A program made the translations under genes and the position numbers. A DNA stretch of 64,000 bases, from contig JAJRZD010000014.1 of the NCBI GenBank assembly GCA_024275415.1, forward strand, positions 1 to 64,000, written 5' to 3'. The notes beneath the pieces were generated by a model that made no database searches, was not told the DNA's origin, and saw nothing but the letters and a program-made list of their open reading frames with translations. Positions 34,414 to 39,682 of the stretch are shown in pieces. The first letter of the stretch is position 1; every line of letters begins with the position of its first letter. Source of the DNA: an archaeon. GTDB lineage: Archaea > Asgardarchaeota > Thorarchaeia > Thorarchaeales > Thorarchaeaceae.

Positions 34414-34998
34414 TTAGAAGTTCACAAAATGCAGCATGAAGTGAGCCTTTGGATGGTCACAAGCTGGGCATTTCTCAGGGGCCTCGTCACCTTCATGTAC
34501 ATAGCCACAGTTCTGACACACCCATTTGGTCTTCTGTTCGCTTTTGAAGACCTTGCCGCTAGCGACGTTTTCAGCCAGCTTGATGTATCGTTCATGGTGC
34601 CATGTTTCTGCCTTAGCCACCATTCGAAAGACATGTGCGATGTTCTTGAACCCTTCTTCCTCAGCGATATCAGCATATTGTGGGTACATCTCAGAGAACT
34701 CGTACTTCTCACCAGCTGCCGAAGCTCGTAGGTTCTCTTCAGTGTTGCCTAGAGGTCCTGTAGGAAAGTTCCATTTGACTTCCACTTCGGTGGGCGCCCC
34801 AGCCTCCTGAAGGAACTTGAAGAACCTCTTTGCATGTTCCTTCTCGTGACCTGCTGTTTCTTCAAAGATATTTGCGATCTGAACATAACCCTCCTTCTTG
34901 GCTACCTTGGCATAGTACGTATACCTGTTCCTAGCCTGAGACTCGCCTGCAAACGCTGTAAGGAGGTTCTTTTCAGTTCGTGATCCTCTTAAATCCAT
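34414..34998 (-). CDS. Rubrerythrin
   Basis: Peroxide-reducing iron protein, 194 residues. The N-terminal ferritin-like diiron domain has the paired ExxH motifs AGESQARNRYTYY, EETAGHEKEHAKRF and, in the second half, EGFKNIAHVFRMVAKAETWHHERY. The C-terminal rubredoxin domain has CQNCGYVHEGDEAPEKCPACDHPK (two CxxC pairs). The ATG 34998 follows AGGAGAAGTG. A TATA element lies about 60 bases upstream, and a hairpin terminator follows, so it is probably a single-gene transcript that defends against peroxide. Confidence 0.97.
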   Translation of the reverse strand: MDLRGSRTEKNLLTAFAGESQARNRYTYYAKVAKKEGYVQIANIFEETAGHEKEHAKRFFKFLQEAGAPTEVEVKWNFPTGPLGNTEENLRASAAGEKYEFSEMYPQYADIAEEEGFKNIAHVFRMVAKAETWHHERYIKLAENVASGKVFKSEQKTKWVCQNCGYVHEGDEAPEKCPACDHPKAHFMLHFVNF

Positions 34999-35170: not shown

Positions 35171-36241
35171 ATGGTACGAATTGCTCATATCTCGGATTCC
35201 CATTTGGGTTCATCAATGTTCCAGTTGATAGAACGACGGGAGGATGCGCGGGCGTGCCTGAAGAAGGCGGTTGACATGGCACTCCGTCACTCTCCAGACA
35301 TCCTCGTTCACACTGGAGACCTCTTTGATTCTCCTGAGCCACATCCTGACGATATCAATCATGTGCTAAAGATATTCAAGGATATAGAAGACACTAAAGT
35401 CATTGTACTTCACGGGAACCATGACATCCCCTACGGATACAAATATCACCACAGTCCGATTCGCTATCTTGAAACTGTCGAGTTTGTTATGACGACCGGG
35501 GACAATCCCAGTAGTGTTCACCAGTACGATATTGACGGAAAGCAGGTTGATATCCATCTGATATCTTGGACGAGAAAGAAACAATTCCAGAAAATACTAG
35601 GTGACATGGAACCTGAGTCCGACATTGCCGTTCTCTTTGCCCATGATATTCCAGTTGAAATTGATGAGCTACCTATACACTATGATTATATCGGGCACGG
35701 ACACTCGCACAATTTCAAACTGGATGAGGATATGGCGATTGGTTGCCCTGGTTCCACACATATCATCGATTGGAAAAGGGAGCTTGGCAAAAAACGGAAA
35801 CTGATTGTTGCTGATATTGACAAGAATGGAACTGAATTCACCACTGAAACATTGAACGATATCCGAGAATTCAAGTTTCATCCTGGTTTAGATATCACTG
35901 GACTGGATGCTCAGTCAGCCAATATCAAGATGAAGGACTGGCTGAAGAATCTCTCACCAAAGAAAAAAGACCCCCCTATTGTCATCGTGCGAGTGAATGG
36001 TATGATATTCGCAGAAACTGAGAAAGGGATTGAACGTAACTCGTTGATTGAATTTGGCGAGAAGCACCTGAATCCCTTGTTTCTGCACATCGAACCGAAC
36101 TGGAATGTCGTTGGTCCTCCCGAACTGGATTTATCGCGCCCTTTGGATGTGAAACGCTCGTTGGAAGAATACATGGAGTTCAAAAAGGATCCCAAGAAAG
36201 AACTTGTAATAGAGGAGCTTCAGAAGATACTCGGAGAGTAG
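35171..36241 (+). CDS. mre11: Mre11-type DNA double-strand-break nuclease
   Basis: Mn-dependent nuclease of the Mre11 family, which with Rad50 processes DNA ends. The calcineurin-like phosphoesterase motifs are all there: ISDSHLG (motif I), HTGDLFD (II), LHGNHD (III), AHDIP (IV) and GHGHSH (V). A cap and a C-terminal Rad50-binding tail complete 356 residues, at the low end for archaea. ATG 35171 opens the gene, which is 4 bases from rad50. The usual herA and nurA neighbours are absent. Confidence 0.95.
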   Translation: MVRIAHISDSHLGSSMFQLIERREDARACLKKAVDMALRHSPDILVHTGDLFDSPEPHPDDINHVLKIFKDIEDTKVIVLHGNHDIPYGYKYHHSPIRYLETVEFVMTTGDNPSSVHQYDIDGKQVDIHLISWTRKKQFQKILGDMEPESDIAVLFAHDIPVEIDELPIHYDYIGHGHSHNFKLDEDMAIGCPGSTHIIDWKRELGKKRKLIVADIDKNGTEFTTETLNDIREFKFHPGLDITGLDAQSANIKMKDWLKNLSPKKKDPPIVIVRVNGMIFAETEKGIERNSLIEFGEKHLNPLFLHIEPNWNVVGPPELDLSRPLDVKRSLEEYMEFKKDPKKELVIEELQKILGE

Positions 36242-36245
36242 CAGG

Positions 36246-37538
36246 ATGCTTAGACAGTTACGTATGACAGATTTCAAAGTGTTCAATGAAATCGACTTTC
36301 AGTTCTCGCAGGGCATAACCGCTATAGTAGGACCTAACGGGTCTGGAAAGACCACCATCCTAGAGGCAATCGAGTTTGCACTCTTTCGTCAGGTGACAAG
36401 AAAGGAGAAGACTGTTCGCAATTTTGAGGACTTCATTAGACATGGAAGAAAACGGGCCATTGTCGAGCTTGAGTTCAGGGCTCCAGTAAACAGGCGGTTC
36501 TATCGAGTAACAAGGTCAATTCATCCTGGGAAGACGAATGCTGATCTGTATGATGATGCTGGTTCAGACCCTATTGTGTCAGGTCCTACAAAGGTCGACG
36601 ATGAGATTGTTCGACTGATTGGCATGGATCGTCATGCTTTCTCCACCCTCACATACGTTCGCCAAGGGGAGATTGATCGCCTCTCACGGCTTCCACCTAA
36701 GAAGCGCAGGGCAGACCTCTATAGTATGATGGGTCTTGGCATTTATGATAAGACCGAGGATCGCGTTCAGAAACAGATCCGTGAGTTGAAGAAACGGATG
36801 TCATCTGTAGAGGACACAAAGCAAAGGCTTGAATCTATCAAGTCACATCTGCCAGCGCCAGATGAGATAGCGTCGTCAAGGGAATCGCTTGAACGTATTA
36901 AGGACAAGCTTGGCGAGAGTGATGACATCGTCCAGATATTGGGAGTCATAGAAAAAGTAGAAACATCTCTCCAACGTGTCATTGACCATCTCAATTCGCC
37001 AGAGCTGACCAATGAATACGAGGAGATGAAGGAGGAACGTGAAGCCGCAAGTTACCTTAAAGAGATACTCGGGGTTCTTCCAGAAGTGGCAGAGAGCCAA
37101 CTGAAACCTGAGATTAGATCAGAGGCACGAGAGATCTTTAGAGGTATATTTGGTGACCGATACAGTGACCTTGTCATAGATGAGGACTATAATGTATCCC
37201 TGTATGATCTCAGAGGTCACAGGGTTAGCCTTACTGCTGCATCAGGAGGAGAGGATGTCTGTGTGAATTTCGCCCTTCGTGTCGCAGTGAACACAGCACT
37301 CCAGAAGCAAGCAGCTCATAGAATACCTCCTCCGGGTATCATCATACTTGATGAGCCTGGGGCGGGGTTGGACACTCAAAGAAGAAAATGGCTGCCTATG
37401 GCAATAGCTGGTCTGAAAACAGTTGATCAGGTTCTCGTGGTCACACACATGGAGGAGCTGAGGGAGTCTGCAGACCGGATTGTCCTTTTGACCCCTCAAG
37501 GAAAACAGAGGCAACCCATGGTCGATGTCATCGAGTAA
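36246..37538 (+). CDS. rad50: Short Rad50-like SMC ATPase without zinc hook
   Basis: ABC/SMC-type ATPase paired with Mre11. The head domain is complete: Walker A GPNGSGKTT at about residue 31, Q-loop YVRQGEID, signature ASGGEDV, Walker B IIILDEPGAGLD, and the switch His in VVTHMEEL. However, the whole protein has 430 residues against about 850-900 for other archaeal Rad50. Only about 125 residues, with two short coiled-coil stretches (about 168-215 and 235-285), separate the two head halves. There is no CxxC hook; the only Cys is in EDVCVN. It cannot tether DNA ends over distance as normal Rad50 does. Confidence 0.92.
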   Translation: MLRQLRMTDFKVFNEIDFQFSQGITAIVGPNGSGKTTILEAIEFALFRQVTRKEKTVRNFEDFIRHGRKRAIVELEFRAPVNRRFYRVTRSIHPGKTNADLYDDAGSDPIVSGPTKVDDEIVRLIGMDRHAFSTLTYVRQGEIDRLSRLPPKKRRADLYSMMGLGIYDKTEDRVQKQIRELKKRMSSVEDTKQRLESIKSHLPAPDEIASSRESLERIKDKLGESDDIVQILGVIEKVETSLQRVIDHLNSPELTNEYEEMKEEREAASYLKEILGVLPEVAESQLKPEIRSEAREIFRGIFGDRYSDLVIDEDYNVSLYDLRGHRVSLTAASGGEDVCVNFALRVAVNTALQKQAAHRIPPPGIIILDEPGAGLDTQRRKWLPMAIAGLKTVDQVLVVTHMEELRESADRIVLLTPQGKQRQPMVDVIE

Positions 37539-37631: not shown

Positions 37632-38822
37632 CTAATCGAAAATCTCCTTTCGAATATCTGACACATCAGTCTTGTCGCGGATCAATCTGCGCAGTTTCAT
37701 CGCGACCTTCTTGTTACCGAGGGCTATTCCCCCCACGACAACGTAGTCCTTCATGACCGCTTTGTAGTATGTGCCAGCTTCGTGGTCTGCCATTACGATC
37801 GATTCGAACTCTGTTGACTGCGGGTTGAAGTTCCCGACCGAAGTCAAATCGATGCCAGCCACTTTTAATGTGTTGCTTGGGGTAGTGCCCTCATAGGTTG
37901 CACTTCCAAGGTCGACGATGTTCCTAGCAGCTATTTTTGCGGTATCCATGGCAACGGGAATGATTCCCCAGCATACACCCTTCCATTCTGTGCAATCACC
38001 TGCCGCAAAGACGGTAGGGCTTGAGGTCTGCATGTGCTCATTGACGAGAATTCCTCGGGCTTTCCCAGTTTCAAGGCCTGCACTGGTGGCTATTTTGGTA
38101 TTGGGTCTGATGCCTGTGGAGATTACAACGAGGTCTCCTTTGACCTTGTCCCCCTTGTCTGAAACAACCCCCGTTGCAACCTCATGTCCTAGGACTTGGC
38201 TGCACGAGAAGCCCAGTAGCACTGTGATTCCCATCCTTTGAAGGTGTTCCATCAAGATTTGACTTGCACCTTGGTCGAGTTGGGCTGGGAGAAGTGTGCC
38301 AATATTTGAGATGACGATTGGCTCTCCTCCGCTCTTTCGGATAGCAGCAGCCAACTCTATTCCCAAGATACCTCCTCCTACGATGATCTCCCTCCCCGAG
38401 CCCTTCACAGCTTCTTTGATTGCGGTCGCATCGTCCAACGACTTCAGGGTATGTACGTTCTTCTTTTCTGTACCATGTATGGGTGGGACAAACGGATGAC
38501 TACCAATTGCCAGTAAGATGTTCTCATAGCCAAAGTATGTGCCTGCATTTGTGAGGACACTTCCTGATGACGGGACAATATCCACAACCGGTTCGGAAAG
38601 GTGTAAAGTGACATCCTGTTTTTCATACCACGCCGCGTTATATTGTACAACATTCTCCTTTGGGATATCCCCACGGATGTAATCGACCAACCGTGGCTTT
38701 GGGTAGTACCCATAGGCTTCTTCAGTGAACACATCAATCTCCATGTCTGCGCCCAGACCACGGATCTCCCGAATCGCAGTGACCGCGGCGATACCATTCC
38801 CGAGAATCGCAATTTTCTTCAT
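37632..38822 (-). CDS. NAD(P)H-dependent FAD oxidoreductase
   Basis: A 396-residue pyridine-nucleotide-disulphide oxidoreductase family member. The FAD motif is IAILGNGIAAVTAIREI, the NAD motif IVGGGILGIELAAAI, and the second FAD stretch TVFAAGDCTEW. The C-terminal domain (about 310-396) has the small dimerisation fold found in rubredoxin reductases, nitrite reductase large subunits and NADH oxidases. No redox-active CxxxxC is present. With rubrerythrin 3 kb away on the same strand it could supply electrons to it, but this is inference. ATG 38822 is chosen over an upstream frame start at 38960. Confidence 0.85.
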   Translation of the reverse strand: MKKIAILGNGIAAVTAIREIRGLGADMEIDVFTEEAYGYYPKPRLVDYIRGDIPKENVVQYNAAWYEKQDVTLHLSEPVVDIVPSSGSVLTNAGTYFGYENILLAIGSHPFVPPIHGTEKKNVHTLKSLDDATAIKEAVKGSGREIIVGGGILGIELAAAIRKSGGEPIVISNIGTLLPAQLDQGASQILMEHLQRMGITVLLGFSCSQVLGHEVATGVVSDKGDKVKGDLVVISTGIRPNTKIATSAGLETGKARGILVNEHMQTSSPTVFAAGDCTEWKGVCWGIIPVAMDTAKIAARNIVDLGSATYEGTTPSNTLKVAGIDLTSVGNFNPQSTEFESIVMADHEAGTYYKAVMKDYVVVGGIALGNKKVAMKLRRLIRDKTDVSDIRKEIFD

Positions 38823-38920
38823 CCAATCGCCCTTCTTTTCTCTTGTATCATTCCCAAAGGTAAACATTCTTGAAGGTATCGAATTGGTTGACCTATCATA
38901 CTCTGGAGATGTGGATTGGC

Positions 38921-39682
38921 ATGGAAATACGAGCGATTCTCCTTGATCTGCACCATACATTGACCACTACAAAATCATCTGTCATCGATGTGGTACGCCA
39001 AATCATGAATAATCACGGACTGGACACATCACATCTTAGTGATGCCCTGTTCGTCGCTGCCTTAGATAAGGCAGACCAAGTAATGGCGTCCTATCAGGTA
39101 TCGAACAATGTTGGTCCTCACTGGGGAGCGGATCCTGAGGATTGGTTGATGTTCGACAGGATTTTCCTTGAGGAGTTGGGTTTTCATGGTTTCACGGATG
39201 ATGATATTCTCACTATTGAGAATGAGTTCAAAGCTATTACCCGTGACAGTGATTGGGAATACTTTACTGAGGACGCATTGTCAGCGATCAGGACACTTCA
39301 TGCTATGGGTTTCACTCTTGGGATATGTACGAAACGGAACGACAACCCTCAGGGGTTCCTATCACGAAGCAAAGTAGCAGACCTCTTCGAAACAGTTCAG
39401 TGGTCTGGGGTGGCGGGCTATGCCAAGCCAAGTCCCTATACCTTGCTTGAGGCGGTGAAGGAGATTGGAGTGAATCCCCGTCGCTGTCTTTTTGTGGGTA
39501 ATTATGTCGGGGTTGATGTCGAAGCTGCACTCAGATGTGAGATGATTCCTGTGTTGCTCTCATGGGCAAACCCTCGTGAAGCCGACAAAGCCCCGCCAGA
39601 ATGCATTGTATTGGACAAGCCTACTGATCTTGTAGAATGGATTCGTTCACAGTCCCCTCATCTCCGACAGGATTCGGAGTAG
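38921..39682 (+). CDS. HAD-superfamily hydrolase
   Basis: A 253-residue HAD protein. Motif I is LLDLHHTLT, with the nucleophile Asp but His where most phosphatases have the second Asp; motif II is the Thr/Ser region GICTKRN; motif III Lys in GYAKPSPYTLLEA; motif IV GNYVGVDVEAA. A cap of about 90 residues lies after motif I. The substitution at the second Asp is common in dehalogenase/phosphonatase-like branches, so the reaction is open. ATG 38921 is the best start. Its last 62 bp overlap the convergent unknown gene. Confidence 0.85.
   Translation: MEIRAILLDLHHTLTTTKSSVIDVVRQIMNNHGLDTSHLSDALFVAALDKADQVMASYQVSNNVGPHWGADPEDWLMFDRIFLEELGFHGFTDDDILTIENEFKAITRDSDWEYFTEDALSAIRTLHAMGFTLGICTKRNDNPQGFLSRSKVADLFETVQWSGVAGYAKPSPYTLLEAVKEIGVNPRRCLFVGNYVGVDVEAALRCEMIPVLLSWANPREADKAPPECIVLDKPTDLVEWIRSQSPHLRQDSE

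Follow-up and report, generated by a model that had tools for sequence, protein, structure and literature searches.

The window analysed here, a 64,000-nucleotide stretch of Thorarchaeial DNA, contains an mre11 and a rad50 gene lying on the same strand with a gap of 4 nucleotides between them (Table 1). The rad50 product is an ATPase head of the SMC type, split by a short stalk that bears no zinc hook. The AAA_23 and SMC_N profiles cover both halves of the head, a sequence search matched solved Rad50 structures, and all six head motifs show little or no variation among 22 compact homologues, in agreement with a preliminary description of this DNA which had reported an intact SMC-type head within 430 residues. 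An AlphaFold model computed with the family alignment as input (pLDDT 86.6) leads from the head through helices 165–201, 205–222, 226–249 and 256–302 and back into the head, such that a four-helix stalk of about 135 residues separates the two head halves. The preliminary description had placed about 125 residues between them; the stalk is indeed short, but that figure is slightly low relative to the modelled boundaries of 165–302. The best structural match for the model is 3auy_A, a short Rad50 crystal construct (TM 0.89 by target length).

Table 1. Features of the compact mre11-rad50 locus and of the loci compared with it. Positions refer to the window unless a genome (G), contig (C) or locus (L) handle is given.
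Feature	Position	Strand	Basis or detail
Compact mre11, 356 aa	35171..36241	+	ORF; Metallophos PF00149, 49.9 bits; AlphaFold; Foldseek
Mre11 domains	residues 1–205 (phosphoesterase), 209–314 (capping), 327–354 (C-terminal two-helix putative Rad50-binding region)		
Mre11 motif I, D9 and H11 (metal ligands)	35195..35203	+	invariant
Mre11 motif II, D50	35318..35320	+	invariant
Mre11 motif III, N83-H84-D85	35417..35425	+	invariant
Mre11 motif IV, H158	35642..35644	+	invariant
Mre11 motif V, H178 and H180	35702..35710	+	invariant
Putative Rad50-binding helix-loop-helix, Mre11 residues 327–354	36149..36232	+	AlphaFold helices 327–337 and 343–354
Compact rad50, 430 aa	36246..37538	+	ORF; PF13476, 97.9 bits; NCBIfam Rad50, 155 bits; AlphaFold; 3auy_A match
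Rad50 Walker A GPNGSGKT, residues 29–36	36330..36353	+	conserved in 22 homologues
Rad50 Q-loop YVRQGEI, residues 137–143	36654..36674	+	conserved in 22 homologues
Rad50 short stalk, residues 165–302	36738..37151	+	AlphaFold; conservation and Cys scan; hydropathy
Rad50 ABC signature ASGGE, residues 332–336 (AASGGE)	37239..37253	+	conserved in 22 homologues
Rad50 Walker B (IIILDEP) and D-loop (GAGLD), ILDEPGAGLD, residues 367–376	37344..37373	+	conserved in 22 homologues
Rad50 switch histidine H401 (VVTHMEE)	37446..37448	+	invariant in homologues
Rubrerythrin, flanking the compact pair	34414-34998		
Rubredoxin-NAD reductase, flanking the compact pair	37632-38960		
ORF, 444 aa	39621-40955		no Pfam match
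ORF, 324 aa	41050-42024		no Pfam match
rad50 relic in G010	G010:C75:26938-27105 (L171:9938-10105)		same spot as the compact pair
Core nurA-herA-mre11-rad50	G000:C20 (L053:3708-10234)		Mre11 436 aa; Rad50 694 aa, CPTC
Accessory nurA-herA-mre11-rad50	G000:C9 (L052:4105-9998) and G000:C37 (L192:1113-2060)		CPRC
Hairpin Rad50, G069	L196:1311-3686	-	
Hairpin Rad50, G086	L201:443-2866	-	
Hairpin Rad50, G050	L204:1379-3706	-	
Hairpin Rad50, G066	L208:3074-5464	+	
Further Mre11-Rad50 type	L211:2917-5103, L210:3024-4904 (G002:C42, G007:C5)		Rad50 about 729 aa, CPIC
Dnd-like island	G000:C12 (L056:3014-13738)		

The absence of a CxxC motif, also recognised in the preliminary description, extends to all 22 complete copies of the compact Rad50. 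A Cys scan found no cysteine pair in the stalk and hydropathy revealed no hydrophobic (membrane) segment there (maximum mean 0.95); the sole invariant cysteine of the 22 copies, C339, sits in the signature helix. Across the same copies the mean majority fraction is 0.72–0.80 in the heads and 0.64–0.77 at the stalk base, falling to 0.41–0.43 in the tip helices, where the protein is least conserved. On known Rad50s the stalk base is the docking site for Mre11, and the high conservation of heads and stalk base as opposed to the tip favours retention of the contact between the two proteins and speaks against a conserved interface at the tip. The extra tip helices (205–249) could nevertheless be a dimer or partner site despite their low conservation.

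In the compact Mre11, the eight metal ligands (D9, H11, D50, N83, H84, H158, H178 and H180) are unchanged in 21 homologues. Its AlphaFold model (pLDDT 87.1) shows the nuclease domain, the capping domain and, at the C-terminal end, a helix-loop-helix resembling that of known Rad50-binding Mre11s. Solved Mre11 was also matched by sequence search, and the top Foldseek match of the model is 3av0_A, the Mre11 from an Mre11-Rad50 crystal. The pair therefore belongs to the Mre11-Rad50/SbcCD superfamily in the broad sense, having a full split ABC head and an adjacent Mre11 with all metal ligands, the C-terminal Rad50-binding helices of Mre11 being present as AlphaFold predictions. A further trait of that superfamily is ATP-regulated, Mn-dependent nuclease activity. 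The pair does not conform to canonical archaeal Rad50, which has a long coiled coil, a CxxC zinc hook and herA/nurA in its cluster, and it scores below the curated NCBIfam archaeal Rad50 equivalog cut-offs (155.2 bits versus 1000; 146.7 versus 700). Scores also lie below the cut-offs of the RecF profile TIGR00611 (60 bits versus 172) and of the ASRP profile NF045487 (50 bits versus 300). Overall, the motifs, metal ligands and predicted folds fit the build of a compact Mre11 clamp gated by ATP, as was originally proposed.

We searched 99 relatives first and then 228 genomes of the Asgard phylum; the relatives with names are Candidatus Thorarchaeota MAGs. In the 228-genome search the compact Rad50 was present in 24 of the 47 genomes of one Thorarchaeia family, while full-length copies were absent from the approximately 180 other Asgard genomes searched, and no other Asgard family among the 228 genomes yielded one. 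Two of the 24 copies are interrupted by contig ends and 22 are complete. Compact Rad50s are 424–434 residues long (one has 458), the complete copies are 51–68% identical to the window copy, and wherever a contig spans both genes the compact mre11 adjoins the rad50. The spacing between Q-loop and signature is 192–196 residues in every complete copy, which excludes the loss of a coiled-coil insert in assembly. The compact hookless pair is a real, conserved Mre11-Rad50 variant and not an artefact. A search of open papers with narrow terms found no earlier description of a natural hookless Rad50, and because the search was confined in this way we claim no priority.

The compact complex cannot be taken for the organism's Mre11-Rad50, since the same genome contains two nurA-herA-mre11-rad50 clusters with zinc hooks, each hooked Rad50 having its own Mre11, and the compact rad50 is therefore not the sole Rad50 of the genome. 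A hooked Rad50 paired with another Mre11 was what the preliminary description had named as refuting its reading, and it occurs here twice. The herA and nurA genes, correctly said to be missing beside the compact pair, are yet present in both of these clusters. The cluster on contig C20 is the core system, because its Mre11 was found in 47 of 47 family genomes and CPTC occurs in all 11 family copies of its Rad50 that were read; this Rad50 passes the Pfam zinc-hook cut-off and is unusually short for a hooked form (about 695 aa). In the accessory cluster, rad50 leaves C9 at the contig end and resumes on C37 with an identical overlap, the joined product being 930 aa. This type occurs in only five of the 47 family genomes (G000, G009, G019, G012 and G022), and its Rad50 groups with Thorarchaeial copies in the tree, which is unlike foreign contamination. 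The compact pair is an extra system beside normal hooked ones and no replacement for them, and it is less surprising than had been claimed because hooked complexes coexist with it. Other SMC-like matches in the genome are SMC proteins on C120 and C71 and a Dnd-type island on C12, which encodes a cysteine desulfurase, a PAPS-reductase-like protein, a DndD-like ATPase, a helicase and a further ATPase and is adjoined by a transposase-like ORF. Two Thorarchaeia genomes carry the further CPIC type listed in Table 1, which sits on very long branches.

In trees of both the Rad50 heads and Mre11, the compact proteins group together with full support at the end of a long stem, apart from both hooked Thorarchaeial types, leaving an internal deletion from either hooked paralogue unsupported. 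Besides the two hooked lineages, the compact pair constitutes a genuine third one in Thorarchaeia. The group nearest to its Mre11 consists of the Mre11s of four other Asgard genomes (G069, G086, G050 and G066; tree support 92/80). The Rad50s of these genomes, of 776–808 aa, have no CxxC, are adjoined by their own Mre11 (372–390 aa) and display, in mid-arm at the expected position of the hook, a strongly hydrophobic double segment; their maximum mean hydropathy is 2.3–2.8, compared with less than 1 in 37 other proteins measured. To judge from their sequences, these four complexes are apparently membrane-anchored via a putative transmembrane hairpin. On the Rad50 side, grouping of the compact with the hairpin type is neither shown nor rejected (p-AU 0.448). 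A speculative and rather doubtful extension of these observations is that the tip of the arm in Asgard Rad50s is interchangeable, carrying a zinc hook in some, a membrane hairpin in others and neither in the compact type, and that the compact pair arose from the hairpin lineage by loss of the outer arm to become a natural tether-free complex with its own job beside hooked complexes in one cell.

The compact pair sits in a conserved block with rubredoxin-NAD reductase, a HAD hydrolase and further genes, its neighbours being redox, HAD and uncharacterised genes. The reductase is found in 18 of the 21 neighbourhoods holding the pair (one genome counted twice). It is convergent to the pair, however, and rubrerythrin occurs in just three neighbourhoods, so that there is no operon and a functional link with either gene was rejected. 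In 14 of 22 neighbourhoods the block also includes the two ORFs of 444 and 324 aa. Nine genomes keep the block with the compact pair missing, and the G010 relic, a 55-codon remnant of the rad50 C-terminus with two stops, is loss caught in progress. On the core-Mre11 tree, which served as a stand-in for the species tree, the presence and absence of the pair takes 12 changes, at least seven of them forced by well-supported branches; the number falls to 8 when just locus-confirmed absences are counted, and some unconfirmed absences may be MAG gaps. Because the locus is fixed, this pattern is most simply read as that of an ancestral, vertically inherited gene pair that was lost many times. As it is missing from about half of the family, the pair is dispensable, and its role may be narrower than general end repair. 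A viral or plasmid origin has no support: no relatives were found in viral contigs, and phage and plasmid records gave no relative covering 80% of the query among the matches listed.

In the established Mre11-Rad50 cycle, the Rad50 heads shut with ATP, masking Mre11, and open again upon hydrolysis (PMC7049730). The P. furiosus MR-NBD complex, from which most of the coil and the hook are gone, hydrolyses ATP and cuts circular ssDNA; without ATP its nucleotide removal extends at least as far as the second position, the eleventh not being reached, and its end-tethering is reduced with some left (PMC7049730). As a natural counterpart of this truncated complex, the compact pair would be expected to trim or nick ends locally and non-processively and to tether only weakly. 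The preliminary claim that it cannot tether ends through a hook stands for the hook alone, given the residual tethering of the truncated complex. We infer that the pair is most likely an ATP-gated Mre11 nuclease that works locally, trimming or nicking DNA ends with no hook to tether them. The usual head complex would be assembled from two copies each of Mre11 and Rad50; on binding ATP the two heads would close over DNA with the Mre11 sites hidden, and hydrolysis would open them, allowing Mre11 to trim or nick the end. An armless, hookless complex of this kind would be confined to local action at one end, gap or hairpin, its long-range tethering being weak or nil, and the hooked complexes of the same cell would provide tethering and HerA-NurA resection. 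In this scheme the assembly of the two proteins, their gating by ATP, their substrate and the split of tasks with the hooked complexes are proposals, while the genes, motifs, conservation, predicted folds, joint inheritance of the two genes, coexisting hooked complexes and repeated losses are observed. Taken as a whole, we consider it probable that the pair is a third Thorarchaeial lineage in which Rad50 is a head with a stubby four-helix stalk and Mre11 is complete, acting as an ATP-gated local end nuclease beside hooked complexes. The invariant motifs, the adjacency of the genes, the fixed spacing, the conservation pattern, the predicted folds and the coexisting hooked complexes all argue for such a compact clamp.

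It is unlikely, in our judgement, that the pair is instead a defence nuclease in which a MAD3-type short Rad50-like ATPase licenses the cutting of invading DNA. Among full-length matches in the defence library, the top profile is MAD3 of MADS (374 positions, 126 bits, query 2–424; the PADLOC output gives no curated cut-off for this match), all 22 compact homologues match it (best E 2.4e-42), and the pair's scattered distribution among the family genomes would fit a defence gene. Against this, the pair has been passed on vertically at a syntenic site surrounded by metabolic genes rather than in a moving island, the MADS profiles do not match the compact Mre11, and the viral, phage and plasmid searches were negative within the scope given above. 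The eight neighbouring proteins include no other MADS or defence component, and a defence island was rejected on the same ground.

Very short-range tethering, with the stalk tip helices substituting for the zinc hook in pairing two complexes, would accord with the modelled tip of two extra helices (205–222 and 226–249) in place of a simple turn, with the conserved L202-P203 turn and with the tethering left in truncated P. furiosus MR (PMC7049730), but the poor conservation of those helices and their lack of a Cys pair make it improbable. A role away from breaks, at replication forks or in chromosome structure in the manner of ASRP/coalescin, appears highly unlikely: the compact Rad50 does match the profile of the ASRPs, an archaeal SMC-related family, yet far below its cut-off, and a catalytically complete Mre11 is always attached here. 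Most ASRPs keep the zinc hook (PMC9389158). Lastly, the broken relic that stands alone at this locus in G010 and the several genomes without the pair might suggest a decaying or misassembled, non-working protein. The conservation of the compact copies excludes decay, and this reading is scarcely credible when 22 complete copies retain intact motifs, constant length and a co-conserved Mre11.

Most organisms retain the hook and long arms of Rad50, which are regarded as necessary for DNA-end tethering, and their contribution to nuclease activity has been studied mostly via artificial truncations. An armless, hookless complex kept beside hooked ones in one cell offers a natural comparison of arm-dependent functions. 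Thorarchaeial genomes carry from one to three Mre11-Rad50 systems in parallel, and this bears on how DNA repair is reconstructed for the archaea related to eukaryotes.

The compact pair shares its head motifs, nuclease and capping domains, C-terminal helices and mre11-rad50 gene order with the canonical, HerA-NurA-linked archaeal complex, but differs from hooked copies in the size of Rad50 (430 versus about 695–930 aa), in lacking CxxC and adjoining herA/nurA, and in its separate clade. The heads and nuclease are likewise homologous to those of E. coli SbcCD and T4-type gp46/gp47 (phrog_77 and phrog_100). The earlier likening to bacterial SbcC as a minimal form was mistaken, since the solved E. 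coli SbcC chain has 1048 aa, and the best viral structural matches (at least 548 aa) also have longer arms. MAD3 is a short Rad50-like ATPase that aligns over nearly the whole compact Rad50, which differs in being paired with Mre11 and in having no MADS partners nearby. The Asgard hairpin Rad50s share the absence of CxxC and have the Mre11s closest in the tree, but possess long arms and a hydrophobic hairpin. The closest structural likeness is to the engineered short Rad50s (P. furiosus Rad50-NBD; 3auy, 3av0 and 5dny), which similarly consist of head and coil base only; the compact form is natural and evolutionarily maintained, and carries two extra tip helices where those constructs have an artificial linker.
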